A DNA stretch of 64,000 bases from contig NZ_JACHND010000001.1 in NCBI RefSeq assembly GCF_014205275.1, positions 3,782,001 to 3,846,000 on the forward strand, written 5' to 3'. Under the pieces are notes generated by a model. That model was not told the origin of the DNA. It was given only the letters and a program-made list of their open reading frames with translations, and searched no databases. Position numbers and translations under genes: made by a program. Position 1 is the first letter of the stretch, and every line of letters begins with the position of its first letter. This DNA is from Sphaerisporangium siamense (GTDB lineage: Bacteria; Actinomycetota; Actinomycetes; Streptosporangiales; Streptosporangiaceae). This document shows, piece after piece, positions 1-13,640 of the stretch.

Positions 1-1818
1 CTCGCATTGCAAATCATCGCCGCGCTTATGCGCGCAGAGCCGGATCGCCCTCTTGTGGAAATGGCGGCCGAACTTACCGATGCCCGCGATCGCCTCGCTG
101 TGCTAGATACCGGTGATGCTGATGAATGGGGACGCCCTGTTGCGGTTCGGGCCGCCTTCGACCTTTCCTACCACCATCTCCTTTCCCAGCGCCCGGAACA
201 AGCGCGGATCTTCCGACTCATGCCTCTAAATCCCGGGACTGACATCTCCACGGACGCTGCCGCTGCTCTCGCAGGTCAACCACAGGCTGCGGTGCGTCGT
301 CACCTTGCCGCCCTCGCGCGTGCTCACCTAATCACCCGTGGCAATGAAGGTCGCCGCTGGGGCATGCATGATTTGCTTCGTCTGTACGCCGACGAACATG
401 GCCGAGATAGTAGTGACGCCGACGATCGCGAACGTGCTCTTGATCGTCTCCTCGATCACTACCTTGTACTAGCCGACAAAGCTGACGACTGTTTGCTGGG
501 ACCGCTTGCTCCCGCGCCCCAGGGGACCTTTAGGAGCCGCGACAAGGCACTTGCATGGTTCGATGATGAGCGTCTAAGCCTCCTTGGTTCCGTATCTGTC
601 GCGTATGAGACTCGGCGGTTCAAGGTCGCCTTGGACCTTCCTGGCTGCCTTAACCGATATCTGCGATGGCGGGGCTACTATAGCGATCGCATTACAATCG
701 ATGTATTGGCTGTGGATGCGGCCCGGCAGCTCCCAGACGCATCCGGAGAGGGTATTGCACTGAATAACCTCGGCAATGCCTTGGGGCAAGTCCGAGATTT
801 CGATGAAGCTATCCATGCCTACCGAGGCGCCCTTGCTATCTATAGGCAGCTCGGGGACCAGTATCGCGCGGGTCTCACCTTAGGTAATCTTGCCACCGCC
901 CTGGCGGAGGTACGCCGGTTTGATGAAGCAGTTTCAGCATGCGAAGAAGCGCTGGTCATCTGCCGCCATACTGGTGATCAGCATGGCGAAGCTCAAGCTC
1001 TAAATAACCTTGGTATCGTGTTGCGTGAGGTTCGACGGTTCGAAGAGGCTATCGCTGCTCACAGGCAGGCTCTGGATTTATGGCGCCATCTCGGCGACTT
1101 ATTTCATCAAGGCATGGCATGGAATAATCTCGGCCTTGCTTTAAGTGATTCTCGTTCTTTTCAAGAGGCGGTCGAGGTGCAGCAGCAGGCCTTGGAGATC
1201 AGCCAAAAGATGCAAGACCGATATGGCGAACAATCGGCACTAAATAACCTGGGGTCGGCGTTATTGCGCGTGAGAAATTACGCCGAATCCATCGCTGCTC
1301 ACCAGAAGGCCTTGGAGATTAGCCGACAACTGGAAGATCAAGATGGTGAACGGTCGGCCTTGAATAATCTTGGTCTCGCGCTGGCCGCTGTGGGCGATTT
1401 CGATGAAGCCATATCTATTTACGAGCAAGCTCTGAACATCAGTCGCCAGCTTGGCAAGCAGGATGGTGAGGCTGAAGTGCTAAACAACCTCGGTCTCGCT
1501 TTGATCGAGGTTGCTCTCTATGATCAGGCTAAAGCGGCTTTTCGGGATGTAATCACCATCTGTCGCCATCTCGGTATGCAGCATCGTGAAGCTGCAGCGT
1601 TAAGTAGTCTCGGTCAGACCTTCACTAGGATGGGTCTGCTCGATGAGGCTATTGCCGCCCATCAAAAAGGTCTGGAAATTTGCCGCGACATCGGTGACAA
1701 AGAAGGTGAATTCGCTACACTGATACATCTCGGCGACGCTTTGCGTGCATTTGGCCGTTCTGTGGAAGCTGAAGCAATCTATCAGCAGGCTATCACTATC
1801 TCCGACACCCTAGAATGA
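1..1818 (+). CDS. STAND-type NB-ARC/TPR protein, 3' part only
   Basis: The reading frame is open through base 1, so the 5' end lies outside the window. The first residues (LALQIIAAL) match the end of an NB-ARC/STAND ATPase module as in AfsR-like proteins. A winged-helix-like stretch follows (residues about 45-130, with RAAFDLSYHHL and MHDLLRLYADEH). From about residue 245 there are nine tandem TPR units of 40 residues, most starting with a variant of LNNLG. The protein is probably a cytoplasmic sensor or signalling ATPase. The target cannot be read from the sequence. The base composition is clearly more AT-rich than the flanking chromosome, which suggests recent acquisition as cargo of the integrative element. 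STAND/TPR proteins act both as SARP-like regulators and in phage defence; the missing N-terminus would decide between these. Confidence 0.75.
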   Translation, partial: LALQIIAALMRAEPDRPLVEMAAELTDARDRLAVLDTGDADEWGRPVAVRAAFDLSYHHLLSQRPEQARIFRLMPLNPGTDISTDAAAALAGQPQAAVRRHLAALARAHLITRGNEGRRWGMHDLLRLYADEHGRDSSDADDRERALDRLLDHYLVLADKADDCLLGPLAPAPQGTFRSRDKALAWFDDERLSLLGSVSVAYETRRFKVALDLPGCLNRYLRWRGYYSDRITIDVLAVDAARQLPDASGEGIALNNLGNALGQVRDFDEAIHAYRGALAIYRQLGDQYRAGLTLGNLATALAEVRRFDEAVSACEEALVICRHTGDQHGEAQALNNLGIVLREVRRFEEAIAAHRQALDLWRHLGDLFHQGMAWNNLGLALSDSRSFQEAVEVQQQALEISQKMQDRYGEQSALNNLGSALLRVRNYAESIAAHQKALEISRQLEDQDGERSALNNLGLALAAVGDFDEAISIYEQALNISRQLGKQDGEAEVLNNLGLALIEVALYDQAKAAFRDVITICRHLGMQHREAAALSSLGQTFTRMGLLDEAIAAHQKGLEICRDIGDKEGEFATLIHLGDALRAFGRSVEAEAIYQQAITISDTLE

Positions 1819-1848
1819 TTGCATTGCTGCTAGTATAGCTGGATAACG

Positions 1849-2310
1849 GCGGGAGTAGACGTCCAGGACGACGCAGCAGTGGACCTTGCCCTGCGGGGTC
1901 GGGTGTTCGGTGATGTCGGTGAACCACGGCTGGTTGAGCCCGCTCCTGCTAATAGCCGGTCGACATGTCGGTCGCTGTTGGCACCTCCGAATCGAGTGCC
2001 GGCGGTGGTTGCCGGGTAGGCCCTTGATGCCAGCACGACTCGTCAACACGGCAACTGCGTCGTATCGCACCGCGATGCCGCGGCCGAGGGCGTGTTCGGC
2101 GTGCACTCGCCGGCCGCCGTAGACGCCTCGAGAGGCGGTGTGGACCTGGCGTATTATCTCGGTGAGCCAGGCACGGCGCAGCGCCCAGGCCGAGGGCGGG
2201 TGCGTCCGCCAAGCGTAGTAGCCCCACTCCGAGACGCCCAGCGCCCGATACCAGACCTGGACTGGGAAGCCTTCGCCGACCATCACCGCGATGGCTTCGA
2301 ATCGCCCATT
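1849..2310 (-). pseudogene. IS3-family transposase OrfB, truncated and frameshifted
   Basis: Family residues include MVGEGFPVQVWYRALGVSEW, SRGVYGGRRVHAEHALGRG and AGIKGLPGN. The rve core begins with WFTDITEH, whose Asp is the first DDE residue. Around base 1965 the conserved DRHVDRLLAG stretch lies in a different frame from WFTDITEH, which indicates an indel. The second Asp and the catalytic Glu are lost because homology ends at about base 1849. No functional transposase can be made. Confidence 0.8.
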
Positions 2311-2609
2311 GGGACACCACCTTTCCCAGCAGATCGACAGCTCGCCGGGTCACCGCCAAATACGTTTTCCAGCTCTGTGATGCGCCGCCGGGCGGCCGCC
2401 AGTTCCGTCTGAGCACAGGACCAAATGCTGGGCTCGAGCCAAGCATCGATGTGGTCTTGCTTACGCCAGTTGCAGATTGCCTGGTCGCTGATCTGCAGGT
2501 CCGCGGCCACCTGTGGCACCGTCCGTCCGGACTTCAGCAGATCCAGAACCTTACGACGGAACTCGGGGGGCTCCTGGGCATGGCGACCTATCCTGGGGGA
2601 TCGAGGCAT
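2283..2609 (-). pseudogene. IS3-family transposase OrfA, frameshifted
   Basis: The start is MPRSPRIGRHAQEPPEFRRK, then an HTH (TVPQVAADLQISDQAICNWRKQ, given here as family signature) and the leucine-zipper start ITELEN. The zipper should continue as ELAVTRRAVDLLGKVV. Those residues do exist, but in another frame, from about base 2365 downwards. The original frame runs into unrelated residues (VFGGDPASC). This is more than the usual programmed -1 shift of IS3 elements, so I treat the gene as broken. Confidence 0.75.
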
Positions 2610-2658: not shown

Positions 2659-3864
2659 TTAGATCTGAGGGTCCGCGAAAACGCGCCGATGGTAGGCCAG
2701 GTGTTGGGGCGCCGGCGTGTGTCCCTCGGCGAGCCGGAGTTGGGTGATCGGCTTGCCGGTCGACACGTCGACGGCTACGAGGTCTTCGCTGATTGAGATT
2801 GTTCCACCGTCAAACAGGACGTGGTGGTTGGGGCACAGGCAGAGGAGGTTGCCCGGCTCGTCTGGGCCGTTGTGAGGCATGCCGAGCGGGCGGATGTGGG
2901 CGCCTTCGGCGTAGGGGCCTCGGCCGGTCATGAGACGGGTGCCGCAGATCTGGCACTGATAGTCGTGCAGGAGTTTGACCTGCTCCGCGAGCGCGGAGTC
3001 ACGGATGACGCGGCTGGTCGTGACGGTGCGGCGGGTTGGTGTTGGTGTCCCATCGCGGGGAGGCGTGACCTCGTCCAGGGCTGGCCTAATGGCGTTGGGT
3101 TCGGGGATAAGCAAGGTGGCTGCGAGTAACTTGTCGTGGTCGACGTCGTGGAAGTATCCATCAAGGAGTCGCAGGACGATCTGCGCACGTATGGCCGGTT
3201 GATCGGCCACGAGGTCGTGTACCCATGAGCGTAAACCGCTGAGCGGCTGGTTCTGCCGCATCCAGCTCTGCGCCGCGCTGCCACTGGCTGTTGGAACGTC
3301 GTTATGGCCAGGGAGGTCCCAGAGCCCGTGGTGATACAGACGGAGTACGGGAAACTCGGCATTCAGGCCGTCGCCGGGATGGCCGAACTCCCGCAGGAGC
3401 GACTCGAGTGCGGGAGAGGCATCTGGCCACGGCACCAGGCGATCGTCGCGTCGGGCCGCTCTGCCAAGGGCCCAGAGAAGGGCCAATGGCTGGTGCCGCT
3501 TCCGTGCGCCGGGCGAAACCGATGCGGCGGTTTTGAGTGTGAGGATCTTCTGGAGCAGGCTTCCCGGGGAGTGTCCGTCGATGACGTCGCTTGGCCGGGT
3601 GACCTCGAAGCCGAGGTCGCTCAGTGTGCGTGCGACGGTGGCGTCGCCGCCGGAGAAGTCGTCGGCTCGTAGCGGTCGGCCGTCTACGCCGCGATGTGCT
3701 ACGCCGGCGATGGCCTTGGAGTCGTACCGCTTCCCGTCGTATAGGAGGAAGTAGTCGCGTGCCGGGCCGTATCCGTAGGCCTTGAGAAAGGCACCCCTTC
3801 CCAGCTTGTCGTACTCCTCGATGGCGGACAGAACCATGTCACGACGGAGATCGGAAAGCGCCAT
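2659..3864 (-). CDS. HNH endonuclease, McrA/ScoMcrA-like
   Basis: The protein has 401 residues. The C-terminal HNH nuclease is clear: YQCQICGTRL (residues about 305-315), EGAHIRPLG, then GNLLCLCPNHHVLFDGG. It has the CxxC...CxxH zinc knuckle and the HNH catalytic histidine. The N-terminal 90 residues (YDGKRYDSKAIAGVAHR, ending ATVARTLSDLGFEV) resemble the head domain of ScoMcrA-type enzymes. The middle region (residues 100-250) would be the phosphorothioate-binding segment in such proteins. By family it is a modification-dependent (type IV) restriction nuclease that cleaves incoming modified DNA. It lies divergent from the XRE gene with 222 bp between. The start has no strong ribosome site. 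The specificity (5mC or phosphorothioate) is inferred, not seen. Confidence 0.75.
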   Translation of the reverse strand: MALSDLRRDMVLSAIEEYDKLGRGAFLKAYGYGPARDYFLLYDGKRYDSKAIAGVAHRGVDGRPLRADDFSGGDATVARTLSDLGFEVTRPSDVIDGHSPGSLLQKILTLKTAASVSPGARKRHQPLALLWALGRAARRDDRLVPWPDASPALESLLREFGHPGDGLNAEFPVLRLYHHGLWDLPGHNDVPTASGSAAQSWMRQNQPLSGLRSWVHDLVADQPAIRAQIVLRLLDGYFHDVDHDKLLAATLLIPEPNAIRPALDEVTPPRDGTPTPTRRTVTTSRVIRDSALAEQVKLLHDYQCQICGTRLMTGRGPYAEGAHIRPLGMPHNGPDEPGNLLCLCPNHHVLFDGGTISISEDLVAVDVSTGKPITQLRLAEGHTPAPQHLAYHRRVFADPQI

Positions 3865-4086
3865 AAGGGAATGATAGGAGCAGCTATTGGCCTAAATGCT
3901 GAACCTGATGGCCATAGTGCCCTGTTAGTGGGGAGTTGTCTGCAAATTGGTCCGATACGGCCTGGACTAGATCACAGCGGTCGCTGGCCACTTGTGCAGT
4001 TGGCACGCCGCATGCACACGTCCTGCAAGCCACATGCCGCGGGCGTCGCAGCGTTCTTGGCGAGGACCACTGACCGAGGATGTGAA

Positions 4087-4956
4087 GTGGCTCAGCGTGA
4101 TAGAACGCTCGGTGTGGAGGAGCGGCGGGATCGGTTGCGGGGGTTGGGGGAGCTGTTTCGGCGGCTTCGTCGGGAGGCTGGGCTGACGGGGAAGGAGTTG
4201 GCGCAGCGGGCGCAGGTGGGGCAGCCGACCATCTCGCGGATAGAGACGGGGCAGCTTCTTCCTACGCCCGAGACCGTTGAGCGGGTTGCGGCTGCTCTTG
4301 GGCTCGGTGAGAGGGACCGCGGCGAGCTTGATGCGCTGCTGGCGCGGCTGCGGGATGAGGTGTCGCGGCTGCGGGGTGGGTTGGCCGGCCGGGAGGCGGC
4401 GAATGCTGCCCGGGTTCGTTCGGCTCAGTGGATCGCGGTGTTCTCCTCGGCGATGATCCCGGCGCTGTTGCAGACGGCTGAGTATGCGCGATTGGCGTTG
4501 GCGGTCGGCCGGGATGTGGATGAAGAGGACGCGGCGAAGGCGGCGGCCGTGCGGGTTGAGGCGCAGGCGGTACTCTTTGAGGAGAGCCGGAAGTTCGCGT
4601 TCGTGCTGACGGAGGGGGCGGTGCGGACGTGGCCAGGGTCGCCGTCGTTGATGCTCGCCCAGCTTGATCGGTTGGTTCAGGTGTCGACGTTGCCGCATGT
4701 TCGGCTGGGTGTGGTGCCTTGGAGGACTGAAGCGCCGGCCTTTCCGTTGCATGGCTTCACGCTCGTTGATGGAGCCGTGAGCGTGGTGGAGAGCCTGACG
4801 GGTGATCTCACGTTGACCGAGCCGGGCGAGATTGCCATGCATGAGGATGCTTTCGAAGCATTCGCGGCTGCGGCGGTGTACGGGGATGCTCTGCGGGATT
4901 TACTGGGTGAAATCGGGGCGGACTTTCGGAAGTTGGCGGCCCAGCTAGAGAAGTGA
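4087..4956 (+). CDS. XRE-family HTH regulator with DUF5753 domain
   Basis: The protein has 289 residues from GTG 4087. I chose this start because GAGGA ends 6 nt upstream; the open frame extends to 3871 but has no homology there. Residues 20-75 form an XRE helix-turn-helix (LRREAGLTGKELAQRAQVGQ, then PTISRIETGQLLPTPETV). Residues 110-280 are a DUF5753 domain (FSSAMIPALLQTAEYARLAL, VRLGVVPW, FTLVDG). Such regulators in Streptomyces-like bacteria usually pair with a DUF397 protein and an RsbW-like ATPase. Here the ATPase follows 93 nt downstream but no DUF397 gene is present. It is a plausible DNA-binding partner for the element's control circuit. Confidence 0.9.
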   Translation: MAQRDRTLGVEERRDRLRGLGELFRRLRREAGLTGKELAQRAQVGQPTISRIETGQLLPTPETVERVAAALGLGERDRGELDALLARLRDEVSRLRGGLAGREAANAARVRSAQWIAVFSSAMIPALLQTAEYARLALAVGRDVDEEDAAKAAAVRVEAQAVLFEESRKFAFVLTEGAVRTWPGSPSLMLAQLDRLVQVSTLPHVRLGVVPWRTEAPAFPLHGFTLVDGAVSVVESLTGDLTLTEPGEIAMHEDAFEAFAAAAVYGDALRDLLGEIGADFRKLAAQLEK

Positions 4957-5019
4957 CGCATTTATGCGTCGAATTCCTTGATGATGACCAAGCGCAGGTC
5001 ATACGCTCGTGACGTGGGT

Positions 5020-5035
5020 GTATAGCCCTCTAGAC
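5020..5035. promoter_or_regulatory. 16-bp dyad box A upstream of the ATPase gene
   Basis: The sequence is GTATAGCCCTCTAGAC. Its reverse complement, GTCTAGAGGGCTATAC, fits the element-wide consensus GTCTAGRGGNNTNNAC. It ends 14 nt before ATG 5050, so a bound protein would sit over the transcription start or ribosome site. A weak TTGATG-N16-CATACG promoter can be read at 4978-5005. Operator function is inferred from recurrence at six sites. Confidence 0.6.
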
Positions 5036-5049
5036 GTTGGAGCGTATCC

Positions 5050-5490
5050 ATGAGCGCATGGCGCATGTCCCGGTCCTTCCTCGGCACTTCCCCCTCGGTC
5101 CGGGAAGCCCGCCGTTTCGTCACGACGTTCCTCGCGGGCTGGCCGATCGTGGAGTCGGCCGAACTCATCGTCAGCGAGCTGGCCGCCAACGCCGTCCGTC
5201 ACACCGCCAGCGGCACGTTCGGCGGGCAGTTCCAGGTGATGATCCACGCCCAGCACGACCGGGTGTGGCTGGGCGTCGTCGATGCCGGCGCCGCGTACGG
5301 TCCCAGCGTCTTCTCCCCGGAAGACGATGAGGAGGGCGGCCGGGGCTTGATGATCGTCGGCGCCCTGGCCGACACCTACGGCATCCGCGGCGACGAGCGA
5401 GGTCGCACGGTATGGGCGCTGTTGCTGGTCAATGCGGGCAAGAACGCCCCGGCCGCACCTCTGCCGGGCTCCGAGGCGTCACGTGCTTGA
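5050..5490 (+). CDS. RsbW-like ATP-binding (HATPase_c) regulatory protein
   Basis: The protein has 146 residues. It is a single GHKL/HATPase domain with the N box ELIVSELAANAVRHT (residues about 38-52) and the G2 box GRGLMIVGALADTYG. The family includes anti-sigma factor kinases such as RsbW/SpoIIAB, but actinobacteria carry many orphan copies of unproven target. ATG 5050 follows GGAG at 5039-5042. It is the second gene of the element's regulatory cassette and has dyad box A directly upstream. A PP2C-like phosphatase two genes downstream would be the natural counterpart in a partner-switch, an attractive but untested idea. Confidence 0.85.
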   Translation: MSAWRMSRSFLGTSPSVREARRFVTTFLAGWPIVESAELIVSELAANAVRHTASGTFGGQFQVMIHAQHDRVWLGVVDAGAAYGPSVFSPEDDEEGGRGLMIVGALADTYGIRGDERGRTVWALLLVNAGKNAPAAPLPGSEASRA

Positions 5491-5636
5491 TCGGCTGCCC
5501 TGCTGGTGTGAGCGTGGTCCTTATCGCGTGCGGCTCGCTGAGCGGGGTCTGCGGTGAGTCCGCGGGGCGTACCCCATCGCAGGTGGAACATAAAGGCGGT
5601 AAGCCTCCAAACCGGTGAACAGCTCAAACGTGCACT

Positions 5637-5676
5637 GTCTAGGGGAATAGACGACAAAGCGTCTAGGGGCCTAGAC
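5637..5676. promoter_or_regulatory. Two 16-bp dyad boxes B and C upstream of the HTH gene
   Basis: Box B (5637-5652) is GTCTAGGGGAATAGAC and box C (5661-5676) is GTCTAGGGGCCTAGAC. Both have perfect 5-bp arms GTCTA/TAGAC around a 6-bp GC-rich core. Their starts are 24 bp apart, slightly more than two helical turns. They lie 31 to 70 bp upstream of GTG 5707. This spacing suggests cooperative binding by a dimeric regulator, possibly the product of the downstream gene itself. Confidence 0.65.
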
Positions 5677-5706
5677 TCGGTGGAGCATCACCGAGAGGAA
5701 CCGGCC

Positions 5707-6549
5707 GTGCCATCCAGCGAGCTTGAGCGTATCGCCGCGATCGAGGACCCGTACGTCCTGCTGCGCGCGGCCACCGAGCGGCTGAATGCCGCCCAACAAG
5801 AGGTGACCGAGCTGGCTCGGCTGCGCCGCCGGGTGATCCAGGATCTGCACGCCCAAGGCATGTCCTACGCCCAGATCGCCGAGGCCGCCGGCCTCACCCG
5901 GGGCCGGATTCACCAGATCCGACACACCGGGCCGGCGCCGGAAGGGGCGTTCTTCGGCATGGGCGCAGTGACGGTAGTGACTCCGCTTCGGCTTGATCCC
6001 GCGACCGGGCGATCGGTGGTGGCGTTGGACGACATGCGGGCAGGGAGTCGGCTGGAGAATCTTGCGCGCGGCTACGGGCTTAGCGTGGGCTCCGACAACG
6101 TCTCGGTGGACGGTGACATCAACTTGAACCGTCCCGGGCTGCTGGTCATCTGCGGGCCGCGCATGTCCGCGGCGGTACGCGAGTGCTACGACAAGGACCC
6201 GGTGGTCCGGTGGGACCGCGATGACAAGGGATGGCTGCTGCGCGACACCCGTACCGGGACCGTCTACCGCTCTGGCACGCAGACCGACCCGCCTCGCCCG
6301 ACGGACTCGGCGTATCTGGGACGACTGCCTCGGCCGGACGGTAACGGCAGTCTTCTGATCATCGCGGGAATCCATCCCAACGGGTCGCTCGGGGTGATCC
6401 ACCTGCTAGCGAGCGAGACCGCGACGCTGTGGGGGCAGGTGGGGGACCAGCGGTTCTCCACGGTGGTGGGGGTGGAGTACGACCCCGACAGCGGGGAGCC
6501 CGTGAAGGCTGAGCTGATCAGTCCGCTGTACCGTCACGACGAGGACTAG
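5707..6549 (+). CDS. HTH protein with sensor-like C-terminal domain
   Basis: The protein has 280 residues from GTG 5707. The start is preceded by AGAGGA and matches the beginning of the coding-like sequence; an open frame further upstream covers the dyad boxes and is not credible. Residues 15-80 are an HTH of the sigma-region-4/resolvase type (VIQDLHAQGMSYAQIAEAAG, then LTRGRIHQIRHTG). The C-terminal 190 residues have motifs LLVICGPRMSAAV, WLLRDTRTGTVY, SAYLGRLPRPDG and SLLIIAGIHPNGSLGVIHLL. I recognise these as recurring in actinobacterial proteins of unknown function but cannot name the domain. It may sense a ligand and bind the dyad boxes directly upstream. The PP2C-like gene follows after 12 nt. 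Confidence 0.7.
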   Translation: MPSSELERIAAIEDPYVLLRAATERLNAAQQEVTELARLRRRVIQDLHAQGMSYAQIAEAAGLTRGRIHQIRHTGPAPEGAFFGMGAVTVVTPLRLDPATGRSVVALDDMRAGSRLENLARGYGLSVGSDNVSVDGDINLNRPGLLVICGPRMSAAVRECYDKDPVVRWDRDDKGWLLRDTRTGTVYRSGTQTDPPRPTDSAYLGRLPRPDGNGSLLIIAGIHPNGSLGVIHLLASETATLWGQVGDQRFSTVVGVEYDPDSGEPVKAELISPLYRHDED

Positions 6550-6561
6550 GGGCTACGCGAC

Positions 6562-7398
6562 GTGCGTCTGACCTTCGCCACCGAGCCCGCCTATCTCGGC
6601 CGCTTGAACGAGGACTTCATCGCTGCCACACAGGATGCGGTCGTGTTGTTGGATGGCGCTGGAACGCCGCCGGGTGTGGAGTGCGGCTGTCATCACGGCG
6701 TGGCCTGGTACTCCCACACGCTTGGCTCCACCCTCGTCACGTCGATGACCCAAAGCGCCGGCACACTGGGCGAAATCCTGGCCGATGGGATCAAGACCGT
6801 CGCCGGTCTGCACGCGTCCAGCTGCGATCTAACCCATGCCGGTTCGCCCTCGGCCACCGTGGTGATGCTTCGCCGGACCGGCGAGATGCTGGAGTGGCTG
6901 GTGCTGGCCGACTCGGTCCTCGTCTTGGACGTTGCCGGATCACCCGAGCCGGTGGTCATCTGCGACGATCGGGAAGCGCAGGTTGGTGCGCGTTATCGAA
7001 CCCTCATGGACTCACTGCCCGGCGGCAGCCCGGAACATCAGCGAGCGCATGCCCAGTACGTCGAGACGATGCGCCGGCACCGTAATCGCGAGGATGGTTT
7101 CTGGGTCGCCTCGGTGGACCCTTCGGCCGCAGATCAGGCACAGAGCGGTGCCATACCTGTTGGCGAGGTTCGCGCGGCTGCTGTGCTGAGCGATGGCGCT
7201 TCCCGGTTGGTCGATCGGTTCGAGTTGGCCACCTGGCGGCAGCTGCTGGATCTGCTCGACTCCTCCGGTCCTGGTGAGTTGATCGACCGGGTGCGGCAGG
7301 CCGAGCGTTCTGACCTGGAGGGACGTCGCTGGCCTCGCGGCAAGGCGTTTGATGACGCTACGGCCGCTTATGTCACAGCTCTCGGCGACGGTTGGTAA
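6562..7398 (+). CDS. PP2C-like phosphatase
   Basis: The protein has 278 residues, start GTG 6562. PP2C-type metal-site motifs are visible: NEDF and VLLDGAG near the N-terminus, AAVLSDGASRLVDRF (residues about 211-225) and FDDATAAYV near the C-terminus. Members of this divergent group often sit beside integrases in actinobacterial mobile elements. The likely reaction is Ser/Thr dephosphorylation of a regulatory protein in the cytoplasm. It is co-transcribed with the HTH protein 12 nt upstream. The second half of the canonical PP2C fold is diverged, so catalytic activity is likely but not certain. Confidence 0.75.
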   Translation: MRLTFATEPAYLGRLNEDFIAATQDAVVLLDGAGTPPGVECGCHHGVAWYSHTLGSTLVTSMTQSAGTLGEILADGIKTVAGLHASSCDLTHAGSPSATVVMLRRTGEMLEWLVLADSVLVLDVAGSPEPVVICDDREAQVGARYRTLMDSLPGGSPEHQRAHAQYVETMRRHRNREDGFWVASVDPSAADQAQSGAIPVGEVRAAAVLSDGASRLVDRFELATWRQLLDLLDSSGPGELIDRVRQAERSDLEGRRWPRGKAFDDATAAYVTALGDGW

Positions 7399-7417
7399 GC
7401 GACACGCCACTCTTTGC

Positions 7418-7523
7418 GTCCATCCCCCTAGACAACCGCGCTTCGCGCTGCCTATCTTCTTTTGTATAGCCCCCTAGACAGTTTGTCTCAGCGGTCTCGC
7501 TGTAGCTGTCTAGGGGGATCGAC
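7418..7523. promoter_or_regulatory. Three 16-bp dyad boxes D, E, F upstream of the transfer/replication operon
   Basis: Box D (7418-7433) is GTCCATCCCCCTAGAC, box E (7464-7479) is GTATAGCCCCCTAGAC and box F (7508-7523) is GTCTAGGGGGATCGAC. Oriented alike, D and E read GTCTAGGGGGATGGAC and GTCTAGGGGGCTATAC. Their starts are 46 and 44 bp apart. Box F ends 13 nt before ATG 7537, next to the ribosome site GGGAG. TATAGC inside box E may be part of a -10 element, which would make binding repressive. This is the densest cluster of the motif and controls the largest operon. Confidence 0.65.
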
Positions 7524-7536
7524 GGGAGATGAAGCG

Positions 7537-7974
7537 ATGGGTATCCGAGGCGCCATCCCGATCCGATTCGAGGATGTGTTCCCCAACGGCTGCTTCATGG
7601 TCGGTGAGGTCGACCAGGTCAAGGACTTCGAGGCCTCCACCGCCACCAAGCCGGTCTACGCCCGCGACAAGACCACGGGTGAGTTCGTCTGGCAGGTCAC
7701 CGTGATCGACTGCGACCCCGATGCTCGGGAGAAGACGGTCAAGGTCAAGATCACCTCGCCGGTTCAGCCGGTGCCCCCGGCTGCGATGCCGGGGTTGCCG
7801 TTCATTCCGGTGGAGTTCGGCCAGCTCGCCGTCACGCCGTACGTCAACGGCAACGGCCGGCTCACCTACTCGGTCAAGGCGCGCGAGATGCGCGCTCCAC
7901 GCAACGCCAACTCGACTCCCGCGGCTTCGGCTGCGGTCAAGCACACCAACGTCTCTGGAAAGGAAGCCGCCTGA
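7537..7974 (+). CDS. pra: Pra-like activator of replication, integration and excision
   Basis: The protein has 145 residues from ATG 7537, with GGGAG 8 nt upstream. The sequence pattern (MGIRGAIPIRFEDVFPNG, VGEVDQVKDFEASTATKPV, ITSPVQPVPPAAMPGLPFIP, VEFGQLAVTPYVN) is that of the small AICE protein usually annotated as plasmid replication, integration and excision activator, after Pra of pSAM2. No DNA-binding domain is visible. It is the first gene of the coupled operon and directly follows dyad boxes D-F. If the name is right it switches the element from the integrated to the replicating state. The name rests on memory of the family, and the biochemical function is not established from sequence. 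Confidence 0.65.
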   Translation: MGIRGAIPIRFEDVFPNGCFMVGEVDQVKDFEASTATKPVYARDKTTGEFVWQVTVIDCDPDAREKTVKVKITSPVQPVPPAAMPGLPFIPVEFGQLAVTPYVNGNGRLTYSVKAREMRAPRNANSTPAASAAVKHTNVSGKEAA

Positions 7975-8246
7975 TGGCTCGCCGCAGGACTGCCCGCATC
8001 AGCACCATCACCCTCAACACCGGCAGCGGAGCTCAAGCGATCAACCACCCGTACCCCGCCCGCACTCCGGTCCTGGCCCTGGACTTCGGCGCCCTGTCGG
8101 TCCTGGTCACCACTTCCACCGGCGACGAGGTGACCGCCTCCGACCTGGAGTTCGCCCGCCAGCTCGCCCACCAGGCCCACCAGTTCGCCACCTCGGTGGA
8201 GCGCTGTTACCACGGTCTGCCCAACGGACGCGGGGTGGCTGCGTGA
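7974..8246 (+). CDS. Small AICE protein, paralogous to the N-terminus of the next gene product
   Basis: The protein has 90 residues and is of unknown function. Its ATG overlaps the previous stop by 1 nt (TGATG). The C-terminal half (DLEFARQLAHQAHQFATSVE) is clearly related to residues near 75-100 of the following FtsK-like protein (DIALARELAHAAARYLSECE). The preceding segment, LALDFGALSVLV, parallels VSFYTPDLAVSV there. The protein contains no Walker or metal motif. Its place between pra and the translocase suggests a role in transfer or its control. Confidence 0.7.
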   Translation: MARRRTARISTITLNTGSGAQAINHPYPARTPVLALDFGALSVLVTTSTGDEVTASDLEFARQLAHQAHQFATSVERCYHGLPNGRGVAA

Positions 8247-10048
8247 GGGACAACCAGCACCAGCCCTACACCCACCTGCGGGCCGCGATCGACGACGGGA
8301 TCACCTGCCTGGACGTCTCCTTCTATACCCCCGACCTGGCCGTCTCGGTGTTCTGCATTGACCAGGAGCGGGCCTGCCTGGACATCTCCAGCGCCGATGG
8401 CCAGGTGAGCATCTCCAGCACCGGCGGCGGTCCTGTCACCCGGGCCGACATCGCTCTGGCCCGTGAGCTCGCGCACGCGGCGGCGCGTTACCTGTCGGAG
8501 TGCGAGCGCCTGTACGCCAAGCGCCACCTGCCCCCGGCCGCGTGGTGGGGCCGCTGGAACTGGTACTTCCGGCGGCCCCTGATCTCCCTGGACACAACAT
8601 CAAGAGAGGGCTCAAGCCTAATGTTCAAAAAGCTTCCTGGCGATGAGACGGCACGCCTGGTCTCCACCACGCCGGACACCGCCGTCGTCTTCCGCCCGGC
8701 CGTCGTTCAGACCCCGGCCATCCTGACCATCGCCATCGCCGTCTGGCGCATGCTCACCGGGGTGGTCGGCCTGGTCTGGCGTCACCCGATCGCGCTCGCC
8801 ATCACCGTCGGTCTCGGCGTCATCTGGACCCGATACGGCTACCTGCACGTCCTCGCGCTCGCGGGCCTGGCCGTAGCGGCCGGCGTCTCGTGGAGGCTGG
8901 TCGACCGGCCCTCGTTCCTTCGACTGGTCGGCTGGCCACTGCTGGGCTGGTGGCGGCTGGTCTCGGTTTACCGGCGTCACTGGCAGCCGGTGATGATCGT
9001 TTCCGGGCTCGGACGGTATCTGCGGGGGCGCGACTGCCTTCCCCGGCTGCTCGCCGTCACCTGCACGCCGTGGGCGGATCTGGTCACGGTGAAGATGCTG
9101 TCGGGGCAGGCCGTCACCGACTGGACCGACCGTACCGAGCATCTCGCCCACGGCTTTGGCGCCACCTCCTGCCGGATCAGCGTCCAGCGCTCCGGCCGGC
9201 TTCTGCTCACCTTCCCGCGGAGTGACCCGCTGGCCGTCCCGCTCTCGGCCGTCCCCGTGCCTGAGACTGCGGCGGCTGGGCCGGTACAGGTCGGCATGCA
9301 GGAGAATGGCCACCCGTGGCTGCTCAAGCTCCATGGCACCCACGTCCTGGTCGCCGGAGCCACCGGAGCAGGCAAGGGCTCGGTGATCTGGTCGGCCATC
9401 CGTGGCCTCCTGCCTGCCATGCGCGCCGGGCTGGTGCAGGTGTGGGCGCTGGACCCCAAGCTCATGGAGCTGTCTTACGGCCGGGCCATCTTCGGTGACC
9501 GCTACGCTGCCGACCCGGATGCGTGTGCCGATCTGCTGGACGCGGCGGTCAAGGTCATGCAGGAGAGGGCGGGCCGGTTCGCCGGCGTTCAGCGCAACCA
9601 CACGCCCACCTTCGAGGACCCGTTCGTCCTGGTGGTCGTCGACGAGGTCGCCTTTCTGACCGCCTACCAGCCGGACAAGCACCTTCGCCAACGCATCACC
9701 GCCGCTCTTGCCACCTTGACGACCCAAGGTCGCGCGGTGGGCGTCGGCGTGCTGGCCGCGCTCCAGGACCCGCGCAAAGAGGTCATGAACATCCGCAACC
9801 TCTTCCCCGACAAGATCGCACTCCGGCTGGACGAATCCGAACAGGTCGACATGGTCCTCGGCGACGGAGCACGCGACAGAGGAGCACTGGCCGACCTCAT
9901 CTCACCCCGCCCGGAAGCCGGGGCCGGTATCGGGTACGTGCGTTTGGAGACCAGCCCCGACCCGGTACGCGTCCGTGCTGCGTACGTCTCCGACGCCGAC
10001 ATCCGGGCCATGGCTGCCGAGTTCGCCCCGGTGGGTGAGGCTGTATGA
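8243..10048 (+). CDS. FtsK/TraB-like DNA translocase with extra N-terminal domain
   Basis: The protein has 601 residues from GTG 8243, overlapping the upstream stop by 4 nt. Residues 1-115 form the small domain shared with the preceding gene. Two or three membrane segments follow at about 157-218. The ATPase has Walker A GATGAGKGS (about 371-379) and Walker B FVLVVVDE (about 460-467), then TTQGRAVGVGVLAALQDPRK. In AICEs this protein pumps double-stranded plasmid DNA between hyphae. An internal ATG at 8621 (MFKKLPGDE) could start a classical translocase of 475 residues, but there is no stop codon between 8243 and 8621. Any ribosome starting at 8243 therefore makes the fusion. Confidence 0.85.
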   Translation: MRDNQHQPYTHLRAAIDDGITCLDVSFYTPDLAVSVFCIDQERACLDISSADGQVSISSTGGGPVTRADIALARELAHAAARYLSECERLYAKRHLPPAAWWGRWNWYFRRPLISLDTTSREGSSLMFKKLPGDETARLVSTTPDTAVVFRPAVVQTPAILTIAIAVWRMLTGVVGLVWRHPIALAITVGLGVIWTRYGYLHVLALAGLAVAAGVSWRLVDRPSFLRLVGWPLLGWWRLVSVYRRHWQPVMIVSGLGRYLRGRDCLPRLLAVTCTPWADLVTVKMLSGQAVTDWTDRTEHLAHGFGATSCRISVQRSGRLLLTFPRSDPLAVPLSAVPVPETAAAGPVQVGMQENGHPWLLKLHGTHVLVAGATGAGKGSVIWSAIRGLLPAMRAGLVQVWALDPKLMELSYGRAIFGDRYAADPDACADLLDAAVKVMQERAGRFAGVQRNHTPTFEDPFVLVVVDEVAFLTAYQPDKHLRQRITAALATLTTQGRAVGVGVLAALQDPRKEVMNIRNLFPDKIALRLDESEQVDMVLGDGARDRGALADLISPRPEAGAGIGYVRLETSPDPVRVRAAYVSDADIRAMAAEFAPVGEAV

Positions 10049-10200
10049 CGCTGACTCACTTCCTCGACGGTCTGCGTTGTGAGGTGTGCCGCTGTCTCAA
10101 CGTCCTGTGGCTGGACCCGGCATGCGGGCTGGTCGAGTGCCAGGAGTGCGGCCAGACCGCCGTGACGCTTCCGGCCGAGGACGGCGGTGATGACCAATGA
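10045..10200 (+). CDS. Small zinc-ribbon protein, 51 aa
   Basis: The ATG overlaps the translocase stop and the TGA overlaps the start of the Rep gene, 4 nt each. This double coupling strongly supports translation. The sequence has two knuckles, CEVCRC (residues 12-17) and CQECG (residues 32-36), plausibly one zinc site. The remainder is short, with an acidic tail ending EDGGDDQ. The function is unknown. Comparable tiny zinc proteins precede rep in other AICEs and may be accessory to replication. Confidence 0.7.
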   Translation: MTLTHFLDGLRCEVCRCLNVLWLDPACGLVECQECGQTAVTLPAEDGGDDQ

Positions 10201-11831
10201 CCAACGCCAATGACCGGTCGCTGCCTCGGGCGGTGCGGATGGCGATGCCGCTGGCCCGGGATGTCGTCGAGCAGATCGCCAAGCAGTACGGCGTGTGCAT
10301 CCGTCCCGTTGCGCTCCAACGGCTGGACATCGCGACCGGCAAGTCCGAGATCATCGATGTTCCCTGCGGGGCGACGTTGGAGTCGAAGTGCCCCTCCTGC
10401 GCGAAGCGCAACAGGCAGCTTCGGATGGCTCAGTGCCGGGAGGGCTGGCACCTGGAGGCCGAGCCGATCATCACCCCAGATGAGGCGGACGACTATCAAC
10501 GCTGCCTTGTTGAGGTACGGGCCGACGCCCAGGTGTGGCGAGATCAGGCCGAAGCCGCGGGGCGGTCCACCGACGAGTTGGATGCGGCGATCGCCGAGTT
10601 GGACGACGAGATCAACAACGCCGGGATGCGCGGCAACGTCCTCGGTCGGATGGTGGGCAAGCGGTGCCGGTCGACCAAGCGGCGCCAGGATGCCCCGGAC
10701 CTGCCTCGGCGCAAGATGAGCGCCTCGACCCTCGGCCGGGTGTTCCACGCGCCGGACGGCAAGATCTTCCGGCCATCGATGTTTCTGACCCTCACCCTGC
10801 CGTCGTACGGGCGGATCAAGGAAGGTGTCCCGGTTGACCCGAGCACCTATGACTACGTCCGAGCTGCTCGGGATGCGCTGCACTTCTCCAAGCTGGTGGA
10901 CCGGTTCGTGCAGAACCTTCGCCGGGTGGCTGGTTTCGATGTGCAGTACTTCGCCGCCGTCGAACCGCAGAAGCGGCTGGCCCCGCACCTACATATGGCC
11001 GTCCGCGGGACGCTGCCTCGGGCGGAGATCAAGCAGATCGCCGCGGCGACCTATCACCAGGTCTGGTGGCCGGCGATCGACGAGGTGAAGTACCAGGGCG
11101 ATCACCTGCCCGTCTGGTCCGATGGCGTCGGATACCTCGACCCGGCGACCGGTGAGCTCCTGCCGACCTGGGACGAAGCCCTTGACCGGCTTGACGCCGA
11201 TGAGGAGGCGGACCCGCTGCATGTGGTCCGCTTCGGCACCCAAGTTGACGTGCAAGGTGTGCTCGCCGGGACCAAGGACGCCGACCAGTGCATCCGCTAC
11301 CTGTCCAAGTACCTCACGAAGAGCATCGGCGACACTCTCGACTCGGAGAACCAGGCTCAGCGCCTCCACGCTGAACGGCTGGCGGACGCACTGCGGTTCG
11401 AGCCGTGCTCGCCGACGTGCCCGAACTGGCTGCGGTATGGGGTGCAGCCCAAGAGCGCGAAGGCAGGCATGGTCCCGGGCCGGTGCCGGGGGAAGGCCCA
11501 CAAGCCCGAGCATCTGGGCTACGCGGGCCGGCGGGTCCTGGTGTCGCGGAAGTGGTCCAACAAGACGCTGGCCGAACACAAGCAGGATCGGCGCACCTGG
11601 GTTTTGGAGGCCCTCGGCGTCGCGGATGAGCCGGTCGACCCGCACCGCTATGTCTGGCGTCCCGTCCCGCATGGCGATGCCAACGTGCCACCCCTGGCCC
11701 TACGGCTGCTGCGGTCGGTTCATGAGCGGCAGCGGTGGCGCAACCACATGAACCAGCTGCAGGCGCAAGGAGACGGACAGGATCTTTCGGCAACTGAAGG
11801 GAAAGCTGCATGGGCAAGCGTGACGAGCTGA
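10197..11831 (+). CDS. repSA: RepSA-like replication initiator
   Basis: The protein has 544 residues. It carries a rolling-circle HUH signature, HLHMAV (residues about 264-269), and a tyrosine motif, YLSKYLTKS (about 368-376). These would nick the origin and attach covalently to the 5' end. A Cys cluster, CPSCAKRNRQLRMAQC, lies near residue 65, and CSPTCPNW with CRGKAH near 405-440 may form a second metal site. Family members (RepSA of pSAM2) initiate replication of the excised circle. The double-strand origin is usually within or next to rep, but I could not identify it. The gene is coupled at both ends, overlapping xis by 22 nt. Confidence 0.85.
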   Translation: MTNANDRSLPRAVRMAMPLARDVVEQIAKQYGVCIRPVALQRLDIATGKSEIIDVPCGATLESKCPSCAKRNRQLRMAQCREGWHLEAEPIITPDEADDYQRCLVEVRADAQVWRDQAEAAGRSTDELDAAIAELDDEINNAGMRGNVLGRMVGKRCRSTKRRQDAPDLPRRKMSASTLGRVFHAPDGKIFRPSMFLTLTLPSYGRIKEGVPVDPSTYDYVRAARDALHFSKLVDRFVQNLRRVAGFDVQYFAAVEPQKRLAPHLHMAVRGTLPRAEIKQIAAATYHQVWWPAIDEVKYQGDHLPVWSDGVGYLDPATGELLPTWDEALDRLDADEEADPLHVVRFGTQVDVQGVLAGTKDADQCIRYLSKYLTKSIGDTLDSENQAQRLHAERLADALRFEPCSPTCPNWLRYGVQPKSAKAGMVPGRCRGKAHKPEHLGYAGRRVLVSRKWSNKTLAEHKQDRRTWVLEALGVADEPVDPHRYVWRPVPHGDANVPPLALRLLRSVHERQRWRNHMNQLQAQGDGQDLSATEGKAAWASVTS

Positions 11832-12001
11832 TGACCGTTCCCGACATCCTCACCGAGCTGGGTGGGGTCTTCGTCCGCACCTTCTACCGCTGGCGGGAGA
11901 TTGGAAAGGCACCCAAAGGCTTCAAGCTGCCCAACGGCGAGATCCGGGTCTACCGGAGCGACTTCGAGGCCTGGCTGGAGACGCTGCGGGAAGCCGCATG
12001 A
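11810..12001 (+). CDS. xis: Excisionase (MerR/AlpA-like HTH)
   Basis: The protein has 63 residues. It forms a winged helix with TVPDILTELGGVFVRTFYRW and the wing segment KLPNGEIRVYRSDFEAWL, typical of AICE recombination directionality factors. The start lies inside the Rep gene and the stop overlaps the integrase ATG by 4 nt. It would bend attachment-site DNA and direct the integrase to excise. The position directly before int is diagnostic. Confidence 0.85.
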   Translation: MGKRDELMTVPDILTELGGVFVRTFYRWREIGKAPKGFKLPNGEIRVYRSDFEAWLETLREAA

Positions 12002-13359
12002 CGACCAGCTATGACGTCAAGTTCTGGGACATCCGCCGGAACAAGTCGAGCAAGACGGCGTCGTACGAGGTGCGCTGGAAGGTCGGCGGCAGGGAGAAGT
12101 CCAAGACTCTTCGCACCAAGGCCCTGGCCGAGAACTTCCTGTCCGACCTGCGGCAGGCGGCTCGGCGGGGAGAGGCTTTCGACGTCGAGCGCGGGCTGCC
12201 CGAGTCGCTGGTCAAGGCCAAGACCGCGCGGACCTGGCTGGAGTTCGCCCAGGCGTATGTACTGGCCAAGTGGCCGCACTCTGCGGCCAAGTCACGCGAG
12301 GGCATCACCGACACGATGACCGGCGTCACGCTCGCCTTGCTGCGAGACCGGCCGGGTAAGCCCGAGCTTCGGGTCTTGCGGTCGGTACTGCGGGGGCATG
12401 TCTTCCTGCCCGATGGCCGGCGGGGGAGTCTCGACCCGGAGCACGCCGTAGCGCTGCGCTGGCTCACCAGTGCTTCGCTGCCCATGGTCGAGCTGAAAGA
12501 GGCCAAGACCGTGCGGGCCGTGCTAGAGGCCCTGTCGGTCACCCTCGACGGGACGCGGGCCGCTGACTCCACCTTCCGGCGTAAGCGGGCGGTGTTCCAT
12601 CATGCGTTGGAGTACGCCGTCGAACTCGGGGATCTTTCGGCAAATCCGCTGGACCGGGTGAACTGGAAGCCCGCCAAGGTCTCGGGAGAGGTGGACCGGC
12701 GGGTCGTGGTCAACCCGGCGCAGGCTCGGGAACTCCTCGTGGCCGTCACATATATCGGACGGTCGCGCGGGGCGATGCTCGCCGGGATGTTCGCCTGCAT
12801 GTACTTCGCCGGCCTTCGACCTGCGGAGGCGGCGGGGCTCCGGGAGAAGGACTGTCATCTTCCGGCAACTGGGTGGGGCCTACTGACCTTGGAGGAGACG
12901 CGGCCAGAGAGCGGGCGACGGTTCTCCGACTCGGGGAGCACCCATGATGTCCGCGGGCTCAAGCAGCGTCGGCGCAAGGCCATCCGGGATGTGCCGATCC
13001 CGCCGGAGCTGGTGCGCATTCTTCGCGAGCACGTTGAGCTGCACGGCACCGCGGCTGACGGCCGGCTCTTCCGGACCGCGACTGGCGGCGTCTTCTCCAC
13101 GACGGCGTACGCCAAGGTCTGGAAGGAGGCACGGACGTATGCGCTGATACCTGATCAGGTCGCGTCGCCCCTGGCCGGCAGGCCGTACGACCTGCGCCAT
13201 GCGGCCGTCTCGCTCTGGCTCAACGCCGGCGTCCCAGCACCGGACGTGGCCGAACGGGCCGGGCACAGCGTGGACGTGCTGCTCCGTGTCTACGCGAAGT
13301 GCGTCGACGGGCAGCGGGAGATCGCGAACCAGCGAATAGCCGAGGCGCTGTCGGCGTGA
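11998..13359 (+). CDS. int: Tyrosine recombinase (integrase)
   Basis: The protein has 453 residues. The N-terminal arm-binding part has KVGGREKSKTLRTKALAENF, the SAM-like core lies near residues 75-210, and the catalytic domain follows. Active-site residues are Arg in YFAGLRPAEAAGL (about 272), the DLRHAAVSLWLNAG box (about 398), His in RAGHSVDVLL and the tyrosine in RVYAKC (about 432). It integrates the element at the 3' end of a tRNA gene. Being last in a 5.8-kb coupled operon, its expression would rise together with Rep and Xis. An own promoter inside rep cannot be excluded. Confidence 0.92.
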   Translation: MTTSYDVKFWDIRRNKSSKTASYEVRWKVGGREKSKTLRTKALAENFLSDLRQAARRGEAFDVERGLPESLVKAKTARTWLEFAQAYVLAKWPHSAAKSREGITDTMTGVTLALLRDRPGKPELRVLRSVLRGHVFLPDGRRGSLDPEHAVALRWLTSASLPMVELKEAKTVRAVLEALSVTLDGTRAADSTFRRKRAVFHHALEYAVELGDLSANPLDRVNWKPAKVSGEVDRRVVVNPAQARELLVAVTYIGRSRGAMLAGMFACMYFAGLRPAEAAGLREKDCHLPATGWGLLTLEETRPESGRRFSDSGSTHDVRGLKQRRRKAIRDVPIPPELVRILREHVELHGTAADGRLFRTATGGVFSTTAYAKVWKEARTYALIPDQVASPLAGRPYDLRHAAVSLWLNAGVPAPDVAERAGHSVDVLLRVYAKCVDGQREIANQRIAEALSA

Positions 13360-13559: not shown

Positions 13560-13566
13560 CTGAGGG

Positions 13567-13612
13567 CGCGCCCTGCAGGATTCGAACCTGCGACCGTCGG
13601 ATTAGAAGTCCG
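13567..13612. other. Probable attachment site (attR) in the tRNA 3' half
   Basis: AICE integrases usually recombine within the anticodon-to-3'-end part of a tRNA gene. Here that part lies 207 bp from the int stop codon and is intact. The partner copy was not found in the window, so the exact core length cannot be given. Confidence 0.5.
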
Positions 13613-13640
13613 GTGCTCTGTCCAGCTGAGCTAAGGGCGC
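13567..13640 (-). tRNA. tRNA-Arg (anticodon TCT)
   Basis: This is a 74-nt cloverleaf without encoded CCA. The acceptor stem is GCGCCCT / AGGGCGC. The D-arm is TAGCTCAGCTGGACAGAGCA, and the anticodon loop CTTCTAA gives anticodon TCT. The T-arm is GCAGG-TTCGAAT-CCTGC. The 3' end faces the integrase gene, so the gene is probably the integration target, restored by the element's right end. Confidence 0.95.

Follow-up and report, generated by a model that had tools for sequence, protein, structure and literature searches.

Six copies of a 16-bp dyad, very probably operators of an element-encoded helix-turn-helix repressor, in an integrative element of Sphaerisporangium siamense

Which protein reads the 16-bp dyad that occurs six times in an integrative element of Sphaerisporangium siamense, and what does it control? 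The dyads (boxes) lie in a 64-kb stretch of DNA (the window; whole genome 8,512,634 bases, 2 contigs), in front of an ATPase gene, a gene pair for a helix-turn-helix (HTH) protein and a PP2C-type phosphatase, and the transfer operon of the element. The original prediction took them for a dedicated operator linking these three units and suggested that the binding protein may be new. All six coordinates and readings are borne out by re-reading the window sequence, and the boxes are very probably operators of the element's own repressor, the HTH protein whose gene starts at position 5707 (hereafter the 5707 product). In window coordinates, the boxes are:

5020 to 5035, minus strand: box 1, just 3' of the start site predicted for the ATPase gene; 74 of 80 related loci have a counterpart with a weight-matrix score of at least 12
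5637 to 5652, plus strand: box 2, overlapping a possible -35 element, TAGACG (5648-5653), of the 5707 gene
5661 to 5676, plus strand: box 3, overlapping the inferred -10 element, TAGACT (5672-5677), of the 5707 gene
7418 to 7433, minus strand: box 4 (T1), overlapping the inferred -35 element, TAGACA (7429-7434), of the transfer operon
7464 to 7479, minus strand: box 5 (T2), at the start site predicted for the transfer operon
7508 to 7523, plus strand: box 6 (T3), between the inferred start site and the ribosome-binding site of the transfer operon

The boxes are exclusive to the element. When one mismatch is tolerated, the degenerate pattern GTCTAGNGGNNTNNAC has six matches in the window (shuffled sequences: mean 0.54, largest 3, none of 100 reaching six), and these are the same six and nothing more, as had been stated for the window. 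The exact pattern also has six matches in the whole genome, all of them these boxes, while the reversed-pattern control has 2; many copies at unrelated chromosomal places, named beforehand as an outcome that would speak against a dedicated operator, were not found.

The boxes are also conserved in related elements. An alignment of the 5707 family, scanned against contigs from one genome per species, gave 138 confirmed relatives, the best 80 of which form the set of loci used here. Exact boxes are present in 77 of the 80 (224 in total), mostly at the same three places, so that the other feared outcome, their absence from close relatives, did not arise. A position weight matrix built from the box sites of the relatives finds 392 sites at a threshold score of 12. 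Such sites precede the ATPase gene in 74 loci and the 5707 homolog in 75; 68 loci have them downstream, and three have one upstream of a gene for an XRE-type regulator. These counts are partly circular because the matrix derives from those very sites. In 61 loci the boxes on the downstream side come as a triplet, always oriented minus, minus, plus, with spacings of 42-46 and 41-49 bp. The GG at positions 8-9, described as invariant, is so within the window but not in the family, where 26 of 80 loci (24 Streptomyces or nearly so, 2 Microbispora) have the perfect palindrome GTCTAGGGCCCTAGAC in front of the 5707 homolog. With copies conserved at the same three promoters and none elsewhere in the genome, the proposal that the boxes tie the ATPase gene and the HTH/PP2C pair to the transfer operon is supported.

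Boxes and 5707 homologs occur together. Among 200 genomes of the order, all scored both for at least two boxes and for a close homolog, 63 have both, 2 only the homolog, 2 only the boxes and 133 neither, the last including 7 in which the sole homolog is a distant one and 2 that have just a fragment. One homolog-only genome (G108) has variant boxes and the other (G159) a single box. In the boxes-only genome G087 the matches are five identical copies of one scattered repeated sequence, which is not the box, and in G152 the 5707 homolog is seen only as two 65-residue stretches.

Two further box positions were observed outside the three shared places. In 16 loci, all Streptomyces (L042, L050, L059, L063, L064, L066, L068, L073, L074, L075, L077, L079, L081, L082, L083 and L085), another box lies more than 300 bp past the first of the downstream boxes, in most cases some 5 kb downstream of where the 5707 homolog starts, and possibly marks a fourth target. 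In L027, L029 and L032 an extra box of opposite orientation upstream of the XRE gene (at -1566, -1599 and -1697 relative to the 5707 homolog) suggests a divergent target gene.

What the boxes would do can be read from their placement relative to the predicted promoters and the genes behind them:

4978 to 5007, plus strand: putative promoter of the ATPase gene, TTGATG - 18 bp - TACGCT (sequence reading)
5050 to 5490, plus strand: HATPase_c_2 (RsbW/SpoIIAB-like) protein (Pfam PF13581)
5707 to 6549, plus strand: putative box-binding repressor P0001 (the 5707 product), HTH at about residues 27-80 and C-terminal alpha/beta domain at about 85-280 (profiles, structure model, operator differences in distant homologs)
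6562 to 7398, plus strand: PP2C-type phosphatase (Pfam PF13672), starting 12 bp past the stop codon of the repressor gene
7453 to 7458, plus strand: inferred -10 element of the transfer operon, TATCTT, 18 bp past TAGACA
7537 to 13359, plus strand: presumed operon 3' of three boxes, coding for two small proteins, FtsK/TraB-type, RepSA-type and integrase proteins and small open reading frames

Downstream of the gene pair, 61 of 67 loci have TANNNT placed 17 or 18 bp past the TAGACA of the first box (mean for shuffled tails 1.4, maximum 5), and in the window the second downstream box lies at the start site that this promoter implies. At the 5707 promoter a box overlaps TAGACT, the presumed -10 element, which is kept in 71 of 72 counterparts, and loci with a second box have it 24 bp upstream, at about the -35 position. 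At the ATPase promoter the box lies directly past the expected start site. The placement at all three predicted promoters fits repression, because the boxes overlap the presumed -35, -10 and start sites.

We consider it highly likely that the boxes are operators through which the 5707 product represses its own, the ATPase and the transfer/replication promoters. It would bind them presumably as a dimer, shutting its own promoter through the boxes over -35 and -10, the ATPase gene through the box just past the start site, and the transfer/replication operon through three boxes, over -35, at the start site and ahead of the ribosome-binding site. With three promoters repressed, the element would stay silent until release of the repressor, a step in which its C-terminal alpha/beta domain and the neighbouring PP2C phosphatase may take part; the release signal and the roles of phosphatase and ATPase are guesses.

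An activator could use the same sites. The 5707 product (280 residues, with an HTH) has its best Pfam match in Sigma70_r4 (E 1.3e-5) and public names of the type 'sigma-70 family', and a sigma-region-4-like protein might place RNA polymerase at these promoters. We regard this as unlikely: only region 4 models and the end of the sigma70-ECF (extracytoplasmic function) model match, sigma region 2 gives no match, the boxes overlap the predicted promoter elements themselves, and the distance from TAGACA to TANNNT is that of ordinary promoters. The name 'sigma factor' is very probably a mislabel.

A second candidate reader is the XRE/DUF5753 protein encoded beside the first box, where a different dyad was also found:

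4081 to 4956 (start codon provisional), plus strand: XRE/DUF5753 regulator (Pfam HTH_31, DUF5753; tblastn match in 76 of 80 loci)
4955 to 4970, no strand: dyad GACGCATTTATGCGTC at the XRE stop codon, probable XRE operator (dyad scan; different dyads at a similar place in other lineages)

Its gene adjoins box 1 and accompanies the boxes in nearly all loci (XRE, ATPase, PP2C and other neighbour genes were matched in the related loci by tblastn). Yet in the 47 loci where the XRE protein is less than 60% identical to the window's, the XRE HTH falls to a mean of 50% identity (44 measurable) with the boxes unchanged, against 91% for the 5707 HTH and 64% for the 5707 C-terminal domain; the values in the other 29 loci are 78% (26 measurable), 92% and 65%. 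Moreover, the dyad close to the XRE stop codon, in most loci 36-50 bp ahead of the ATPase box, differs by lineage while the 16-bp box stays the same. Among 63 loci it is GACGCATTTATGCGTC in 11, has the core GGAATAATTCC in 26 and reads CTATTCACTGA(A/G)CGTATTGAATAG in 9; in some others the dyad chosen by the scan looks like chance. It varies as the XRE protein does, the behaviour expected of an XRE operator, and is probably just that. Lineage-specific dyads were also seen in L014, L028, L037, L045 and others at about the same place as 4955-4970. Finally, L020 keeps a variant box before its 5707 homolog with no XRE match. The original prediction did not choose between the 5707 product and that of the XRE gene (given there as 4087); the 5707 product is the likely binder, and reading of the boxes by the XRE protein seems very unlikely.

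Distant homologs of the 5707 product bear on this choice. The set comprises 25 loci (33-45% identical; 8 from the order, 6 from a phylum search and 11 of 24 plasmid records), and their fetched stretches have a PP2C match in 18, an ATPase match in 1 and an XRE match in none, although at L102-L107 about 1.5 kb of upstream DNA is covered, so that a more distant XRE gene would escape notice. Dyads of the same build with different letters are present in several of the 25 upstream regions. The general pattern GYNWA-N6-TWNRC, written after some of these regions had been viewed, has 12 matches, spread over 11 of the 25 upstream regions of 250 bp (200 shuffles: mean 0.61, maximum 4), and 2 in the other 102,940 bases of these loci, the upstream regions being about 100-fold richer. 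Patterns specific to single loci, derived from the same regions for 19 of the 25, have mostly 2-3 copies before the 5707 homolog (one in L107, none in L112) and are confined to that region in 13 of the 19. L108 and L115 have one further copy each elsewhere, and L111 has two exact copies 3.8 kb downstream, as a regulon would have.

Besides these limits of coverage and of pattern choice, several points weigh against the 5707 product as the reader. The XRE recognition helix itself is fairly conserved (QPT[IV]S in most loci), so that the comparison of HTH identities disfavours the XRE protein without excluding it. Exact boxes are absent from 3 of the 80 loci: L053 has none before the altered 5' end of its 5707 homolog, and L020 and L040 carry variants. 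Among the distant loci, 14 of 25 have no match to the general pattern, an unbiased dyad scorer exceeds all 30 shuffles in 6 of 25 (L088, L089, L092, L114, L116 and L117), the remaining dyads were chosen partly by eye, dyad length and centre vary, and the locus-specific patterns of L090 and L092 also occur elsewhere at about shuffle level.

The DasR site, like the half-site of the boxes, holds GTCTAGAC, and the host genome has 49 GntR matches, but binding by a host regulator such as the GntR/HutC protein DasR is hardly credible, given a chromosome without any other box copy, boxes that track the element-encoded 5707 gene across genera, and dyads that differ beside distant 5707 homologs.

The closest likeness to the 5707 product was found in KorA (TrfB) of the IncP plasmids RP4/R751 and its relative ArdK, which PMC9723621 describes as plasmid repressors with inverted-repeat operators in their target promoters. 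Residues T64, R65, G66 and Q70 of P0001 align with T47, R48, G49 and Q53 of KorA, although the profile comparison is weak (probability 16 and 25%). R65, G66 and Q70, which match the base-contacting R/K48, G49 and Q53, are invariant in 30 aligned sequences of the 5707 family, and many homologs have S at position 64. PMC4889941 describes R48 of KorA as contacting the first G, G49 as packing against the third base and Q53 as reading the centre. The half-sites are also similar, GTTTAG for KorA and GTCTAG here, with GTTTAG-like forms beside several distant homologs; one difference is the cytosine at the third base of GTCTAG, a base that would clash there with KorA (PMC4889941). The KorA operator lies at -10, as does box 3, overlapping TAGACT, by our promoter prediction. 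In R751, whose KorA has the helix TKGAVSQ, GTTTAGCTAAAC occurs twice in 50 kb, with three further one-mismatch copies (shuffles 0.02).

The two proteins differ in other respects. R751 KorA has 100 residues and a small C-terminal dimerisation domain, whereas the model of the 280-residue 5707 product (mean pLDDT, the predicted local distance difference test, 94.6) has an alpha/beta domain of about 190 residues, with nearest solved matches in glucuronidases and BcsB that imply no function. RP4 KorA half-sites abut (PMC9723621), whereas the boxes have 4 bp between half-sites, and the 5707 gene, unlike that of KorA, is followed by a PP2C gene. Against Pfam KORA (PF16509; cut-off 26.7 bits), P0001 scores 17.6, P0129 17.2, P0127 16.4 and R751 KorA 118.4. 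The 5707 product appears to work like KorA yet falls outside Pfam KORA; what is new is its C-terminal domain and its PP2C partner. The suggestion of a new binding protein stands in that our literature searches found no paper on the 5707 protein, and is qualified by the KorA-like recognition helix and half-site.

Helix and half-site appear to change together when the segments at KorA positions 47-53 are paired with half-sites that were chosen partly by eye and without a statistic. TRGRIHQ or SRGRIHQ goes with GTCTAG, SRARIHQ with GTCAA/CTAGAC, SRARLSQ with GTAAG and TRSRLNK with GTTAAC, the GQ/GK-type helices SRARIGQ, TRARVGQ and SRQMVGK with GCAAG or GCAAC, and SKGRISQ, SKGRVSQ and SAGRVSQ with GTTTAG-like half-sites. 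KorA-like helices accompany KorA-like half-sites (GTTTAG).

The PP2C motif residues D31, G32, D211, G212, D264 and D265 are at least 95% conserved in 74 loci. In the 721 locus pairs with XRE identity above 65%, distances in the 5707 C-terminal domain correlate with those of PP2C (rho 0.74) rather than of the ATPase (0.17) or XRE protein (0.28), a difference that is gone over all locus pairs (0.48, 0.47 and 0.46). Between the window and L028, for example, the C-terminal domain is 60% and PP2C 72-74% alike, against 92-95% for XRE, ATPase and the 5707 HTH, as if the two differed as a block of exchanged alleles. This covariation hints at coupling between them, unproven because neighbouring genes can be exchanged together without their products touching one another.

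One profile search places at least 1,104 protein clusters in the 5707 family at E 1e-3 or better. Tentatively, and as a possibility only, these may be an undescribed superfamily of mobile-element master repressors, with a KorA-like reader for palindromes of 16 bp, its specificity having diversified within the family by a readable helix-to-half-site code, and a flavodoxin-like sensor domain whose alleles are exchanged with PP2C. If so, the C-terminal domain and PP2C would be a switch, and possibly an immunity type, that distinguishes resident from incoming elements. The family appears to hold transfer genes off in many related elements, and a candidate repressor with operator and regulon can now be offered for many elements and plasmids, which puts the widespread 'sigma factor' label in question. 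The helix-operator pairs form a natural series for testing how an HTH code evolves, and what releases such elements becomes testable through the C-terminal domain and PP2C.

In the literature searched, the described repressor of actinobacterial integrative elements is the GntR-type KorSA, and the 5707 product is a different candidate. According to PMC8584621 and PMC3218068, KorSA of pSAM2 and SCO3932 (GntR/HutC) are element-encoded, bind their own promoter and are thought to control an actinomycete integrative and conjugative element (AICE), much as is proposed here for the 5707 product. KorSA belongs to the GntR family, whereas none of the 49 GntR (PF00392) matches listed for the genome falls in the window, in agreement with the earlier remark that no GntR/KorSA-type repressor was visible. 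PMC8584621 describes KorSA as acting by way of pra and reports no site in front of traSA, whereas here boxes stand directly before the transfer operon.

Gene pairs for XRE/DUF5753 and RsbW-like ATPase proteins occur in actinobacteria, and the cassette opens with one; here it is joined to the 5707/PP2C pair, whose box the ATPase gene also bears. The regulatory cassette seems to sit atop differing transfer modules, since its genes are matched in 76 (XRE), 76 (ATPase) and 78 (PP2C) of 80 loci, against 52, 32 and 34 for the transfer, replication and integrase genes of the window's element.

The element has the traits of an AICE: RepSA, FtsK_SpoIIIE and Phage_integrase matches, and a tRNA-Arg (13565-13640, minus strand) adjoining the tyrosine integrase gene. 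Its left end was not found within the window, where the longest exact copy of the tRNA stretch elsewhere is 12 bases, and may lie outside. Upstream of the cassette, 2659-3864 (minus strand) codes for an HNH protein whose match to phosphorothioated-DNA restriction endonucleases (NF045808) stays below the cut-off at 101 of 180 bits; it is also matched beside L028. Finally, two overlapping frames at 1810-2609 (minus strand), which give transposase-type HTH matches and a short rve match below the cut-off, look like the remnant of an IS3-type element.

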